Origin: an uncultured Enterorhabdus sp.
GTDB lineage: Bacteria; Actinomycetota; Coriobacteriia; Coriobacteriales; Eggerthellaceae
Direction of reading: 5' to 3'
Assembly: GCA_947649205.1 (NCBI GenBank)
Contig: CANSQM010000001.1
Span: forward strand, 186,001 to 250,000
DNA: 64,000 bases
Shown here piece after piece: positions 2,546-23,081 of the stretch (position 1 is the first letter of the stretch; each line of letters opens with the position of its first letter). Made by a program: the position numbers and the translations under genes. The notes below the pieces were generated by a model that searched no databases, was not told the origin of the DNA, and saw nothing but the letters and a program-made list of their open reading frames with translations.

Positions 2546-2576
2546 TTGACCTGGAGTTAACTCTACATGGTTGAAT
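2546..2576 (+). promoter_or_regulatory. MerR-type promoter of the aldo/keto reductase gene
   Basis: TTGACC (2546-2551) and TTGAAT (2571-2576) are separated by 19 bp, the long spacing used by MerR-family activators. Between them is an imperfect dyad, CTGGAG-TTAA-CTCTAC. The same arrangement precedes the other aldo/keto reductase at 21892. No merR gene is present nearby. Confidence 0.55.
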
Positions 2577-2610: not shown

Positions 2611-3771
2611 ATGGAATACCGCAAGCTGGGCCGCACGGGCCTTGAGGCGAGCGTCATCGGGTTCGGCGCCGAGTGGATCGGCCAGATGGAACAGGCTGAG
2701 GTGAATGCCATGGCCGCCCGGGGCGCGGCGGCGGGTGTGAACATCGTGGACTGCTGGATGAGCGACCCGGTTGTGCGCTCGGCCCTGGGCGAGGCGCTCG
2801 CGCCCACGCGCGACGGGTGGATCATCCAGGGGCACATCGGCAGCACCTGGCAGGACGACCAGTACGTGCGCACCCGCGACATGGCCCAGGTGCGCCCCGC
2901 CTTCGAGGACCTGCTTGCGCGTCTGCGCACCGATCATGTGGAAATCGGCATGATCCACTACGTGGATGCCTGCGATGAGTTCCGCGCCATCATGGACGGT
3001 CCCTTCATCGAATACGTGCGCGAGCTTTTGGCCGCCGGGCGCATTCGCCACATCGGCCTTTCCACTCACAACCCCGAAGTGGCGCTTCTGGCCTGCGACG
3101 ATCCGGAGATCGAGGTCGTCATGTTCTCACTGAATCCGGCCTTCGACATGATGCCGGCCTCGGAGAATCTGGAAGATTTGTTTGGCGATTACGAGAACGT
3201 GGGCGGCGACGGTATCGAGCCGGTGCGCGCTGCCCTGTACGCTCGGGCCGAGGCGACCGAGACCGCCCTCACGGTGATGAAGGGCTACGCGGGCGGACGG
3301 CTGCTTTCCGCCGATGCGTCGCCCTTCGGCGTGGCCCTCACGCCGGTGCAGTGCATCCACTACGCGCTCACGCGCCCGGCCGTGGCCAGCATCATGGTGG
3401 GCGTGGAAACCGTGGAGCAGCTTGACGAGGCCTTGGGCTACGAGACGGCCACAGCCGCCGAGCGCGACTACGCCAGCGTGCTGGCCGGCGCCCCCAAGCA
3501 CGCCTATATGGGCCAGTGCACCTACTGCGGCCACTGCGCCCCTTGTACCGTGGGCATCAACATCGCGCTCGCGAACAAGTTCTACGACCTGGCCGAGATG
3601 GCCGTCGGGGACGGCGCGGCTTCGGCGCCCGCCTCGGTGCGGGCCCACTACGAGGCCATGGCCGTGACCGCCGAGGCCTGCACGGCCTGCGGCCAGTGCG
3701 AGCCCCGCTGCCCCTTCGGCGTGTCCATCCCCGAGCGCATGGAGAAGGCCGCCGCGCTGTTCGGCTGCTAG
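2611..3771 (+). CDS. Aldo/keto reductase-like protein with two ferredoxin-type Fe-S motifs
   Basis: 386 residues. The N-terminal ~290 residues form an aldo/keto reductase TIM barrel (start MEYRKLGRTGLEASVIGFG, later RHIGLSTHNPE and MVGVETVEQLDEAL). The C-terminus has CTYCGHCAPC and CTACGQCEPRCPFG, which should bind iron-sulfur clusters. The classic catalytic tetrad is incomplete: the Asp is present (VDCW), but the Tyr that normally follows is absent and the Lys segment reads IIQGHIG. The His region is IHY. The ATG at 2611 follows GAGAGGAG; an in-frame ATG at 2575 lies inside the promoter and is rejected. Likely cytoplasmic redox role; substrate unknown. Confidence 0.85.
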   Translation: MEYRKLGRTGLEASVIGFGAEWIGQMEQAEVNAMAARGAAAGVNIVDCWMSDPVVRSALGEALAPTRDGWIIQGHIGSTWQDDQYVRTRDMAQVRPAFEDLLARLRTDHVEIGMIHYVDACDEFRAIMDGPFIEYVRELLAAGRIRHIGLSTHNPEVALLACDDPEIEVVMFSLNPAFDMMPASENLEDLFGDYENVGGDGIEPVRAALYARAEATETALTVMKGYAGGRLLSADASPFGVALTPVQCIHYALTRPAVASIMVGVETVEQLDEALGYETATAAERDYASVLAGAPKHAYMGQCTYCGHCAPCTVGINIALANKFYDLAEMAVGDGAASAPASVRAHYEAMAVTAEACTACGQCEPRCPFGVSIPERMEKAAALFGC

Positions 3772-19874: not shown

Positions 19875-21593
19875 TCAGGCGCAGCGGGCGCCCCCGCCGA
19901 GGGTATGGCGCACTACCTCGAAGCGCTCCAGCTTCGCGTCCTCGTCGGGACGGATGCCGGCCTTCTTCTTGGCGATGGCGATCTGGTCCATGACCGTATC
20001 CACGCCGTCCAAGTCGGGGAGCAGCAGCCCCCGCCTGAAGCCGCGGGTGACGATGACGCCGTAGCGGGCCGGGTCAAGCTCCTCGAGCGAGTGCACGGGC
20101 TCCGGCTCGCCGAGCACGTCCACCGAGTAGGACAGGGCGTCCAGCTCATCGGGCCGCACCTGCGGAAAGCGCGGATCCTCGGTGGCGGCGGCCACGCCGT
20201 TCATGATGATCTCCTCGGCCAGGCACGACTGGGCCGGCGCGATGGTGCCAATGCACCCGCGCAGTTTTCCCTCCTTGTGCAAGCTCACGAAGGTGCCGGC
20301 CCGTCGTCTGGTCATGACATCGGGGAGCCCCTGAGGGGTGGGGAGCACCTCGCCGCTCCCCACGATGGATTCCACACTCAGTCGTGCAAGGGCCACGAGC
20401 GGGTCCACCTGGGGATCCAACACGAGCGAGAGGATCGCGCTGTTTTCCTCCCGCTCGCCCTCGTCGAGGGCCGTCTCGGCATCCCGATCCCACGCAAGGG
20501 GGTGGCGCCCCGTGCTCGGATCGGCAATTGCATGGGCCGCCTCGGGTGTCGCGCCGGCAATGCCGGCCGATGGGCCGGGTGCGCCTGCGGTCCTGGTGTC
20601 GGCAACCGTCGCACCAGCGTCTTCGCGCGCCCCGCTCTCGCACCGGTTGTGCCGCCCGCTGCCGTGCCCGGCATCGGGCGGTAGGCCGTCAGCGGGTTTC
20701 TCGGCCGTCTCTCCCCGTTCGCGGGCCGTCTTGGCATGGGCGCCGCGAATCTCGGCCTCCACTTCCTCCTCGGTAGTGGAAGGGCCGGCCTCTACCTCGA
20801 AGGCGGCGATGGCGTAGCCTACGCCGAAGGGGCCCTCGTAACTGAGCAGCTGGGGTGTGAAAGGCAGTCCCTCCAGCGCACCGGCCATGATCTCGAAAGC
20901 TCGCAGGCCGCACTCGGCGGCGCTCTCGCACATCACCGGATCCAGGGCGAAGAGCTCTTGCAGGGCCCCGCGGGCGAAGATCCCTTCCACGGCGCGGTCG
21001 AACCGGCGCCCGGCCGGATCGAAGCCGTAGGGGCCATCCTCGGTCAGCTTGTGGGAGAGGTCGCCGCTCGCGATGAGCACACAGCGCATGTCCAGACGCT
21101 CGGCGGCCCGAGTGATGGACTGCCCCAGGAAGTGGTGATCCGACGGCGAGAGCGCCGAGAGGCCCACGCGCAGCACGGGCACCTCCTCCAAGTCCACTGT
21201 TTGAGCGAGGAAGTGCAGCGGCACGAAGGCGCCGTGGTCGATCTCGGTCTGGGCCGCGGGTGCGCCGGCTGCGGGGATGGACCGTCGGGCGAGGCGGTCG
21301 GCCACCGCTTGGGTGAACTCGCCATCGCCGCGGGTGGTTACCGTGGCCTGGGGCTGTCCGAACGGGGCCATTGAGCCGGTTTCCTCGTCGGCATTGGAGA
21401 TGAAGAAGCCGTCGCGGTAGAACGGCGCGTGGGGCGAGGCAATGACGATGACGTCGGGGTCGTGGCTTGCCACGCGCCGGGCGATCTCCTCGTAAGCGGC
21501 GACCGTATCGGCGACGGTTTCCTCCTGGCCCTGACCCACGGCGGGCACGATGAGCGGCGGATGGGGCACGGCATAGGCGGCAAGAAGGCCCAT
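19875..21593 (-). CDS. AmmeMemoRadiSam system protein B-A fusion (MEMO-like plus AMMECR1)
   Basis: 572 residues. The first ~285 form a class III extradiol dioxygenase-like (MEMO/AMMECR) domain: VPHPPLIVPAVG, VIASPHAPFYRDGF, EIDHGAFVPL and LIASGDLSHKL, with the His and Asp metal positions. A low-complexity linker (about 287-390) joins it to an AMMECR1 domain (GTFVSLHKEGKLRGCIGTIA, EDPRFPQVRPDEL). These two parts plus a radical SAM enzyme form the AmmeMemoRadiSam system of unknown function. No radical SAM gene lies nearby. The ATG follows GGGAAGG. Confidence 0.85.
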   Translation of the reverse strand: MGLLAAYAVPHPPLIVPAVGQGQEETVADTVAAYEEIARRVASHDPDVIVIASPHAPFYRDGFFISNADEETGSMAPFGQPQATVTTRGDGEFTQAVADRLARRSIPAAGAPAAQTEIDHGAFVPLHFLAQTVDLEEVPVLRVGLSALSPSDHHFLGQSITRAAERLDMRCVLIASGDLSHKLTEDGPYGFDPAGRRFDRAVEGIFARGALQELFALDPVMCESAAECGLRAFEIMAGALEGLPFTPQLLSYEGPFGVGYAIAAFEVEAGPSTTEEEVEAEIRGAHAKTARERGETAEKPADGLPPDAGHGSGRHNRCESGAREDAGATVADTRTAGAPGPSAGIAGATPEAAHAIADPSTGRHPLAWDRDAETALDEGEREENSAILSLVLDPQVDPLVALARLSVESIVGSGEVLPTPQGLPDVMTRRRAGTFVSLHKEGKLRGCIGTIAPAQSCLAEEIIMNGVAAATEDPRFPQVRPDELDALSYSVDVLGEPEPVHSLEELDPARYGVIVTRGFRRGLLLPDLDGVDTVMDQIAIAKKKAGIRPDEDAKLERFEVVRHTLGGGARCA

Positions 21594-21891: not shown

Positions 21892-21922
21892 TTGACTTGA
21901 AGTCGACTCCAAGGTTTACCCT
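21892..21922 (+). promoter_or_regulatory. MerR-type promoter of the second aldo/keto reductase
   Basis: TTGACT (21892-21897) and TACCCT (21917-21922) are 19 bp apart. A dyad CTTGAAG-TCGA-CTCCAAG (21896-21913, 6 of 7 pairs) fills the spacer, the classic MerR-family operator position. The rest of the 360-bp gap upstream shows no gene. Confidence 0.65.
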
Positions 21923-21953: not shown

Positions 21954-23081
21954 ATGACCGCATCTTACGAGGGCGTGGCCAAGCTAGGCTTCGGCGCCAT
22001 GCGCCTGCCCCTGACCGATCCCGACGACGTTACCGCCATCGACATCGAGCAGGTGAAGACCATGGTGGACGAGTTCATGGCGAAGGGCGGCACCTACGTG
22101 GACACCGCCTTTGTCTACCACGACGGCGCATCGGAGACGGCCCTGCGCGAGGCCTTGGTGGAGCGCTATCCCCGCGAGGCGTTCACCCTGGCCACGAAGT
22201 GCCTGGCCTGGGCCTGTGCCAGCAAGGAGGAAGCCCAGGCCTGCCTGCCCACATCCCTGGAGCGGTTGGGGGTCGATTATGTCGACTACTACCTGCTGCA
22301 CAATCTGGGCGGCGCGCGCACGGCCAAGTTCGATGAGTACGATATGTGGAACTACGTGGCCAAGGCGAAGGCCGATGGCCTCATCCGCCACGTCGGCTTC
22401 TCCATGCACGACGGCCCCGAGACCTTGGAAGGGATTCTGACGGCCCACCCGGAGGTCGATTTCGTGCAGCTGCAGGCGAACTACCTGGATTGGGACGACC
22501 CGGTCACCCAATCGGCCCGCTGCCTGGAAGTGGCCGCGGCCCACGGGGTGCCGGTCATCGTCATGGAGCCGGTGCGCGGCGGCCGTTTGGCGAATCTGCC
22601 CGAGCGCGGCGCGGAGGTGCTGGCGGCGGCCGACCCGGACGCGAGCCAGGCTCGTTGGGCCTACCGCTTCTGCCTCGATCTGCCCGGGGTGCTCACGGTG
22701 CTGGCCGGCGCCTCTACGTTGGAGCAGATGCAGGACAATATGGACACCTTCCAAGCCCACAAGCCCCTGACCGAGGCCGAGCGCAGCGCCATTGCCGAGG
22801 TGGTGGCCGCCCTGCGCAGCGTGGATCTCATTCCCTGCACCAACTGCGGCTACTGCGTGAAGGACTGCCCCGAGGGCGTGAAGATTCCCATCGCCCTGAA
22901 CCTGCTGAACCTGGAGAAGCAGACCGAGGACAACGCCTTCGTGAAGGGTCTCTACTCCTGGCAGGCCGCCGAGGGCCCTGCATCGAAGTGCATCCAGTGC
23001 GGTTCCTGCGAGGCCATGTGCCCCCAGTCCATTCCCATCATCGACCGCCTCGCCGAGGCCGTCGAGCACTTCGAGGGGTAG
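21954..23081 (+). CDS. Aldo/keto reductase with two 4Fe-4S ferredoxin motifs
   Basis: 375 residues. All four catalytic positions of the aldo/keto reductase fold are present: Asp and Tyr in VDTAFVYHDGASE, Lys in LATKCLAW and His in DYYLLHN. The C-terminus has CTNCGYCVKDCPEGVKIP and CIQCGSCEAMCPQSIPI, consistent with two iron-sulfur clusters. It is likely a cytoplasmic oxidoreductase acting on an aldehyde or ketone with ferredoxin-type electron transfer. The ATG follows GAGAGGAG. Its promoter resembles that of the divergent paralogue at 2611, so a common MerR regulator is likely. Confidence 0.9.
   Translation: MTASYEGVAKLGFGAMRLPLTDPDDVTAIDIEQVKTMVDEFMAKGGTYVDTAFVYHDGASETALREALVERYPREAFTLATKCLAWACASKEEAQACLPTSLERLGVDYVDYYLLHNLGGARTAKFDEYDMWNYVAKAKADGLIRHVGFSMHDGPETLEGILTAHPEVDFVQLQANYLDWDDPVTQSARCLEVAAAHGVPVIVMEPVRGGRLANLPERGAEVLAAADPDASQARWAYRFCLDLPGVLTVLAGASTLEQMQDNMDTFQAHKPLTEAERSAIAEVVAALRSVDLIPCTNCGYCVKDCPEGVKIPIALNLLNLEKQTEDNAFVKGLYSWQAAEGPASKCIQCGSCEAMCPQSIPIIDRLAEAVEHFEG

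Follow-up and report, generated by a model that had tools for sequence, protein, structure and literature searches.

The stretch of DNA analysed here (64,000 nucleotides from an uncultured Enterorhabdus sp., hereafter "the window") encodes two AKR-domain proteins, AKR1 and AKR2, each with two C-terminal 4Fe-4S motifs and each preceded by a promoter of the stretched type (Table 1). Read directly from the sequence, the AKR1 site at 2546-2576 is TTGACC-TGGAGTTAACTCTACATGG-TTGAAT and the AKR2 site at 21892-21922 is TTGACT-TGAAGTCGACTCCAAGGTT-TACCCT; the spacer is 19 bp in both, in both, counting from the first base of the -35 element, the dyad is centred between bases 13 and 14, and the distance from the -10 element to the reductase start is 34 bp for AKR1 and 31 bp for AKR2. 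MerR-type promoters are recognised by 19-20 bp between -35 and -10 and by a dyad within that spacer, features that both window sites possess, and the positions and spacing ascribed to these dyad promoters in an initial annotation of this DNA are borne out by the direct reading. As far as sequence can establish it, the two sites are confirmed as real 19-bp MerR-type promoters of the form TTGAC-N19- -10, with a dyad. The -10 hexamer TTGAAT of the AKR1 site is unchanged in 5 of 6 aligned genus genomes. A TATAAT-containing block at 2521-2545, GCAGAAGGGCTTCACGCTATAATCG, abuts the AKR1 -35 and is conserved in the genus nearly as well as the site itself; the block could represent a second promoter, a point that counts against the regulon proposed below, or could belong with the divergent adenine deaminase gene. 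An RNA element at 2400-2700 was also considered and was rejected, since 0 Rfam families matched.

Table 1. Promoter elements and genes of the two AKR loci in the window
Feature	Position	Strand	Evidence
AKR1 promoter, -35 element TTGACC	2546..2551	+	sequence read directly, matrix
AKR1 promoter, 19-bp spacer with operator dyad, core GGAGTTAACTC	2552..2570	+	sequence, matrix
AKR1 promoter, -10 element TTGAAT, weak	2571..2576	+	sequence, genus alignment
AKR1, 386-aa divergent AKR-fold protein, two C-terminal Fe-S motifs	2611..3771	+	domain search, alignment
AKR2 promoter, -35 element TTGACT	21892..21897	+	sequence read directly, matrix
AKR2 promoter, 19-bp spacer with operator dyad, TTGAAGTCGACTCCAAG region	21898..21916	+	sequence, matrix
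AKR2 promoter, -10 element TACCCT, weak	21917..21922	+	sequence, genus alignment
AKR2, 375-aa Fe-S aldo/keto reductase, full catalytic tetrad	21954..23081	+	domain search, alignment

The core TTGACNTNNAGTNNACTNNA, sought in the window with at most one mismatch, occurs at exactly two places, the AKR1 and AKR2 sites, and is absent from all of 100 dinucleotide shuffles of the window. The notion that ordinary promoters here carry palindromes by chance, with no relation between the two sites, draws something from their weak -10 hexamers and from the TATAAT upstream of the first, but its probability is close to nil in the face of the shuffles, of the 0 matches to the reversed pattern across 119 genomes of the family (Eggerthellaceae), and of the way in which invariant alignment columns are distributed within the genus. 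Such columns are denser inside the AKR1 site (19/31) than outside it (28/122; 6 genus genomes, G110 left out) and denser inside the AKR2 site (18/31) than outside it (7/122; 6 genus genomes, G117 left out); for the merR site described below the figures are 27/31 inside and 20/122 outside in 7 genus genomes.

A search of the whole host genome (2,735,181 bases in 70 contigs, 99.6% complete) found the exact core at three places, namely the AKR1 and AKR2 sites and a third on the minus strand of contig C22 (C22:8142-8161), and found the reversed pattern at none. The third site sits 65 bp upstream of a gene for a 127-aa MerR-family protein (merR) of the NmlR/AdhR-like kind. The initial annotation, which proposed a genome scan for this pattern, had made its reading depend on the genome holding a MerR gene with a matching motif, and the third exact core, lying upstream of merR, provides one. 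Its remark that no regulator lies nearby also holds: the 263-kb contig to which the window belongs is without a MerR-family gene, all five PF13411 hits of the genome being elsewhere. When the dyad and the -10 element were required and the -35 was dropped, five places were returned (AKR1, AKR2, merR, larB and C20:33787), and none with the reversed control. At the larB site (C22:7598-7622, minus strand) the GGAGCCAACTCC stretch is perfect and TATCAT stands at the 19-bp distance, but the -35 is poor; the place at C20:33787 has 11.0 bits and is without a -35. Allowing two mismatches adds C1:149118 (minus strand, TTGACTTCGAGTTAGCTTTAAGGTTTAGGGT), which lies ahead of a lipoprotein gene. The weak two-mismatch matches at loci L022-L028 were rejected as regulon members, nothing there exceeding 6.6 bits, as was C13:66845 (L021), which has 0.9 bits and lies within an apparent coding frame. 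The third Fe-S AKR gene of the genome, on C13, is without a site. By eye, the lipoprotein (L020:753-1472, contig C1) joins a flavodoxin-like start to a cupin-like end, and its counterpart in L032 (genome G051) is without most of the CMD part, which L031 and L033 have, a pattern suggestive of decay of this regulon gene through internal deletions.

The sites were also scored with a matrix built from 56 distinct sites near NmlR-like genes outside Adlercreutzia (loci L191-L264), a training set that takes in other Eggerthellaceae and also L191 and L193, which are Adlercreutzia by title, yet are 67-70% relatives and were kept. The matrix, whose consensus is TTGACT TGGAGTnaACTCCAaGTGg TAtAaT, gives 37.0 bits to the AKR1 site, 35.3 to AKR2, 34.6 to merR, 30.6 to the lipoprotein gene and 11.8 to larB; the next best place in the window has 0.7 bits, and the top score in 40 random 128-kb sequences is 10.6 bits, a null maximum to which the larB score comes near, and this we count against the regulon proposed below. 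Because the training sites were initially picked up with a core pattern that came from the window itself, the independence of this matrix is incomplete. A matrix from the 42 sites outside Coriobacteriia only gives the window sites 29.8 and 36.8 bits. These 42 were selected on their first 20 bases only, the -10 being unused, and TAnnnT lies exactly 19 bp past the -35 in 42/42 of them (0.00 at 18 and at 20 bp), which is independent support for the stretched-spacer architecture. Neither the distance of 19 bp to the -10 nor the location next to MerR genes was built into the selection of sites.

The regulator encoded on C22 has a MerR winged-helix domain (PF13411, 61.1 bits against a cut-off of 21.6). 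Its best NCBIfam model is NmlR, at 146.4 bits, which is under the equivalog cut-off of 175, and for this reason it is named here NmlR/AdhR-like and not NmlR. It is 83-99% identical to records named Adlercreutzia, including A. muris, A. caecimuris, A. equolifaciens and A. hattorii, and the host genome, judged by this protein, groups with that genus. The regulator has two cysteines only, Cys44 and Cys52, of which Cys52 is found in 80/80 named relatives and Cys44 in 70/80. Formaldehyde sensing by the AdhR protein of B. subtilis needs Cys52 (PMC4776306, in excerpt), and the invariance of this residue makes it likely, by analogy, that the signal of the C22 protein is a thiol-reactive aldehyde or redox one. 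There are five MerR_1 hits in the genome and more than one MerR subgroup reads the motif (see below), and one might suppose that regulation is by SoxR or by a different MerR-family protein of this genome, the C22 protein sharing no more than the motif. We regard this as most improbable: among the five MerR_1 genes only that on C22 has a site, the hit on C12 is an HspR-like gene flanked by a dnaJ-like and a clpB-like gene (names by eye), and the stretches around the remaining three (two on C4, one on C7) contain no site above 6.8 bits. SoxR promoters are also of the 19-bp MerR type and have a similar AGTTAACT centre. The C22 protein differs from SoxR in lacking the four-cysteine cluster motif, and SoxR identity was rejected for it (33.8 bits against a cut-off of 116.9); with two cysteines only, it could not hold a SoxR-type cluster.

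In the 119 family genomes the exact core is found at 49 places in 34 genomes. A MerR hit lies no more than 200 bp from 25 of the 49 sites, and an AKR1/AKR2-type gene follows within 60 bp at no fewer than 6, a lower bound in that the AKR hits used were part of all hits. Thirteen further places were read, with downstream genes labelled by eye: four are of cupin type, four of flavodoxin type, one of AKR type and one is LarB (confirmed by search), the rest being one DUF362-like, one alpha/beta-hydrolase-like and one nucleotidyltransferase-like gene, the last of which may owe its site to chance; 5 of the 49 places were left unread. Upstream regions scoring above 15 bits by the matrix were obtained for 30/30 merR genes (30 of the 89 listed MerR places) and, among the best 30 of each, for 26/30 AKR2, 14/30 AKR1 and 16/30 LarB genes, with none of the reversed controls above 3.8 bits. 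That only 14 of the 30 tested AKR1 orthologues have the site is counted against the regulon.

Beyond the family, 63 sites with at most one mismatch were found around 80 named NmlR-like genes, and none in the control. A site lies no more than 250 bp upstream in 41 of 79 readable regulator genes; 38 are without one, and some of these are the last genes of an operon that is itself headed by a site. Judged by eye, 11 of the 49 loci outside Coriobacteriia have an AKR hit next to the regulator and 5 have LarC there. The gene order is site-merR-AKR-larC in Terrisporobacter, site-larC-merR-CMD-flavodoxin-site-AKR in Clostridium algifaecis, merR-larE-larB-larC in Slackia, and larB-larC-larE-merR, with no site at the one-mismatch level, in Extibacter muris; flavodoxin, CMD/cupin and FMN reductase genes are further genes linked to the regulator in relatives. 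The regulator, reductase and lar genes, being neighbours in these taxa, appear to travel together, which is further evidence of a functional link.

Since the reductase genes, merR and the adjacent lar genes have the same stretched promoter, they very likely form one small regulon, which in the host genome would consist of merR, larB-larC, AKR1, AKR2 and the flavodoxin/cupin lipoprotein gene. From the operators and their genomic neighbours we hold it highly probable that both window sites serve as operators for a single MerR regulator of the NmlR/AdhR-like kind, the one on C22, and we infer that they are bound by it and activated through it. The suggestion already made from the window, that a single MerR protein encoded at a distance governs a small regulon of aldehyde or redox type, gains support from a merR gene that is on another contig, carries the site and encodes Cys52; the inclusion of larB-larC, which are outside the window, goes beyond that suggestion. 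According to a review (PMC9909328, in excerpt), dimers of the MerR family bind within 19-20 bp spacers, where they act as repressors until the signal arrives and then kink the DNA. By this model, a dimer of the C22 regulator would sit on the dyad between -35 and -10 elements whose 19-bp separation is 2 bp over the reach of sigma-70, and would keep the promoter silent while the signal is absent; once Cys52, perhaps with Cys44, meets the signal, the DNA would be kinked and undertwisted and RNA polymerase would start, predictably near 2583 for AKR1 and 21929 for AKR2.

The catalytic tetrad of the AKRs is Asp-Tyr-Lys-His. The tetrad of AKR2, aligned with solved AKRs, is complete; AKR1, in an alignment of its own, keeps Asp47 and His116, has His74 at the place of the catalytic Lys, and is without a counterpart of the Tyr. 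AKR1 reaches 48 bits only against the AKR family, its first cysteine motif is CX2CX2CX2C and not of the ferredoxin type, its motifs DCWM and QGH(I/V)G are identical in 9/9 aligned AKR1 proteins, and a search for a solved structure of a close relative returned none (best E 8e-12). Of the two Fe-S aldo/keto reductases announced in the initial annotation, then, the two Fe-S motifs of each and the full tetrad of AKR2 stand, but AKR1 lacks the Tyr and Lys and is probably other than an ordinary NAD(P)H aldo/keto reductase, a non-canonical character that it took alignment to see. Elsewhere in the window, at 19875-21593, a single gene fuses LigB/MEMO-like and AMMECR1 domains (AmmeMemoRadiSam system).

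LarB (272 bits, cut-off 175) and LarC1 (181 bits, cut-off 90) are encoded beside merR, larB-larC being located just downstream of it in the host genome. The LarC2 domain is absent from this LarC, and no LarC2-like stretch was seen in the Adlercreutzia loci examined; LarE was sought within 4 kb of merR in Adlercreutzia loci and none was found, and LarA (PF09861) is present in 0/9 genus genomes. The same PF09861 search, run as a control, found the domain in 2 of 14 named genomes, those of Thermotoga maritima and Methanosarcina acetivorans. The host LarC (L012:5854-6777, minus strand) is a protein of ~300 aa with a His-rich insert; in the Adlercreutzia and Parvibacter loci examined LarC has no LarC2 part, and in Slackia and Bacillota it is full-length. 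According to a recent paper (PMC11796402, in excerpt), larB, larC and larE occur without larA in about 15% of genomes, from which cofactor-binding proteins of unknown identity have been inferred; the same source gives a mass shift of about +450 Da for holo-LarA. The LarB and LarC1 described here either represent a LarA-less case of that kind or make something else.

A linkage of larB-larC to the regulator is seen in some Bacillota and, by eye from tables, in 24 of the 119 family genomes (8 genera), where larB is no more than ~1.1 kb downstream of merR. Such a linkage also suits a reading in which the regulator and its sites stay the same, nickel or the condition of the nickel-pincer pathway acts as the signal, and the reductases serve nickel-cofactor metabolism; the nickel-responsive MerR protein NimR of H. 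influenzae makes a nickel signal conceivable (PMC7055735, in excerpt). NimR is alike, as described there, in being a nickel-connected regulator of the MerR family, but its target is a nickel importer, whereas the targets here are lar genes and reductases. We think a nickel signal unlikely, as the invariant cysteine is the one that AdhR requires for aldehyde sensing, and the links to flavodoxin, CMD/cupin and FMN reductase genes recall the AdhR electrophile regulon of B. subtilis (PMC4776306, in excerpt). A further reading is that, in LarA-less bacteria, the regulon marks the client of the nickel-pincer cofactor, or of a related nicotinate-derived compound (the product of LarB plus a LarC1-only LarC). 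AKR1, with its Fe-S AKR fold and altered active site, would be the foremost candidate among the co-regulated proteins, the cofactor serving in carbonyl or hydride chemistry that the electrophile-sensing MerR protein switches on. This is a long shot. The shared regulon gives a short list of cofactor-using candidates, by which the question of the unknown client becomes testable.

The class of regulator and the type of promoter are already known. The AdhR regulon of Bacillus subtilis (adhA, yraC, yraA) and the NmlR regulons of Haemophilus and Neisseria are alike in their small MerR regulator with Cys52/54 and in the CMD-type proteins among the genes linked to relatives of the host regulator, a CMD protein belonging to the B. 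subtilis AdhR regulon (PMC4776306, in excerpt); they differ in their targets, which in the host are lar genes and proteins of the Fe-S AKR-fold kind. The Lar system (LarA, LarB, LarC, LarE) is alike in the LarB and LarC1 found by merR, which LarE joins in Slackia and Extibacter, and differs in the features of the genus given above, i.e., no LarA, a LarC without LarC2, and no LarE near merR. The literature searched, whose coverage leaves many journals outside, yielded no paper that connects regulators of the NmlR/AdhR type with lar genes or with Fe-S AKRs, and within it the target set of Fe-S AKR-fold proteins and nickel-pincer genes appears to be undescribed. Two promoters read by eye have in this way been assigned a regulator, an operator and a conserved target set, and the pairing of nickel-pincer cofactor genes with an aldehyde/redox type of MerR protein, a pairing that recurs in Eggerthellaceae and Bacillota, offers new leads on the role of that cofactor in bacteria without its known enzyme.

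Two minor observations concern the operator itself. In the merR promoter the -10 region is overlapped by a second, partial copy, TTGACGTGTAGTCTG (L012:8088-8131, minus strand), and a copy like it is present in 6/7 genus genomes. In some family genomes, MerR proteins only 30-37% identical to the regulator also adjoin such sites, so that the motif appears to be read by more than one MerR subgroup, and two subgroups may share one operator; the second subgroup, at 30-36% identity to the regulator, is divergent to the site in G023, G012, G105, G118, G035, G094 and G095.
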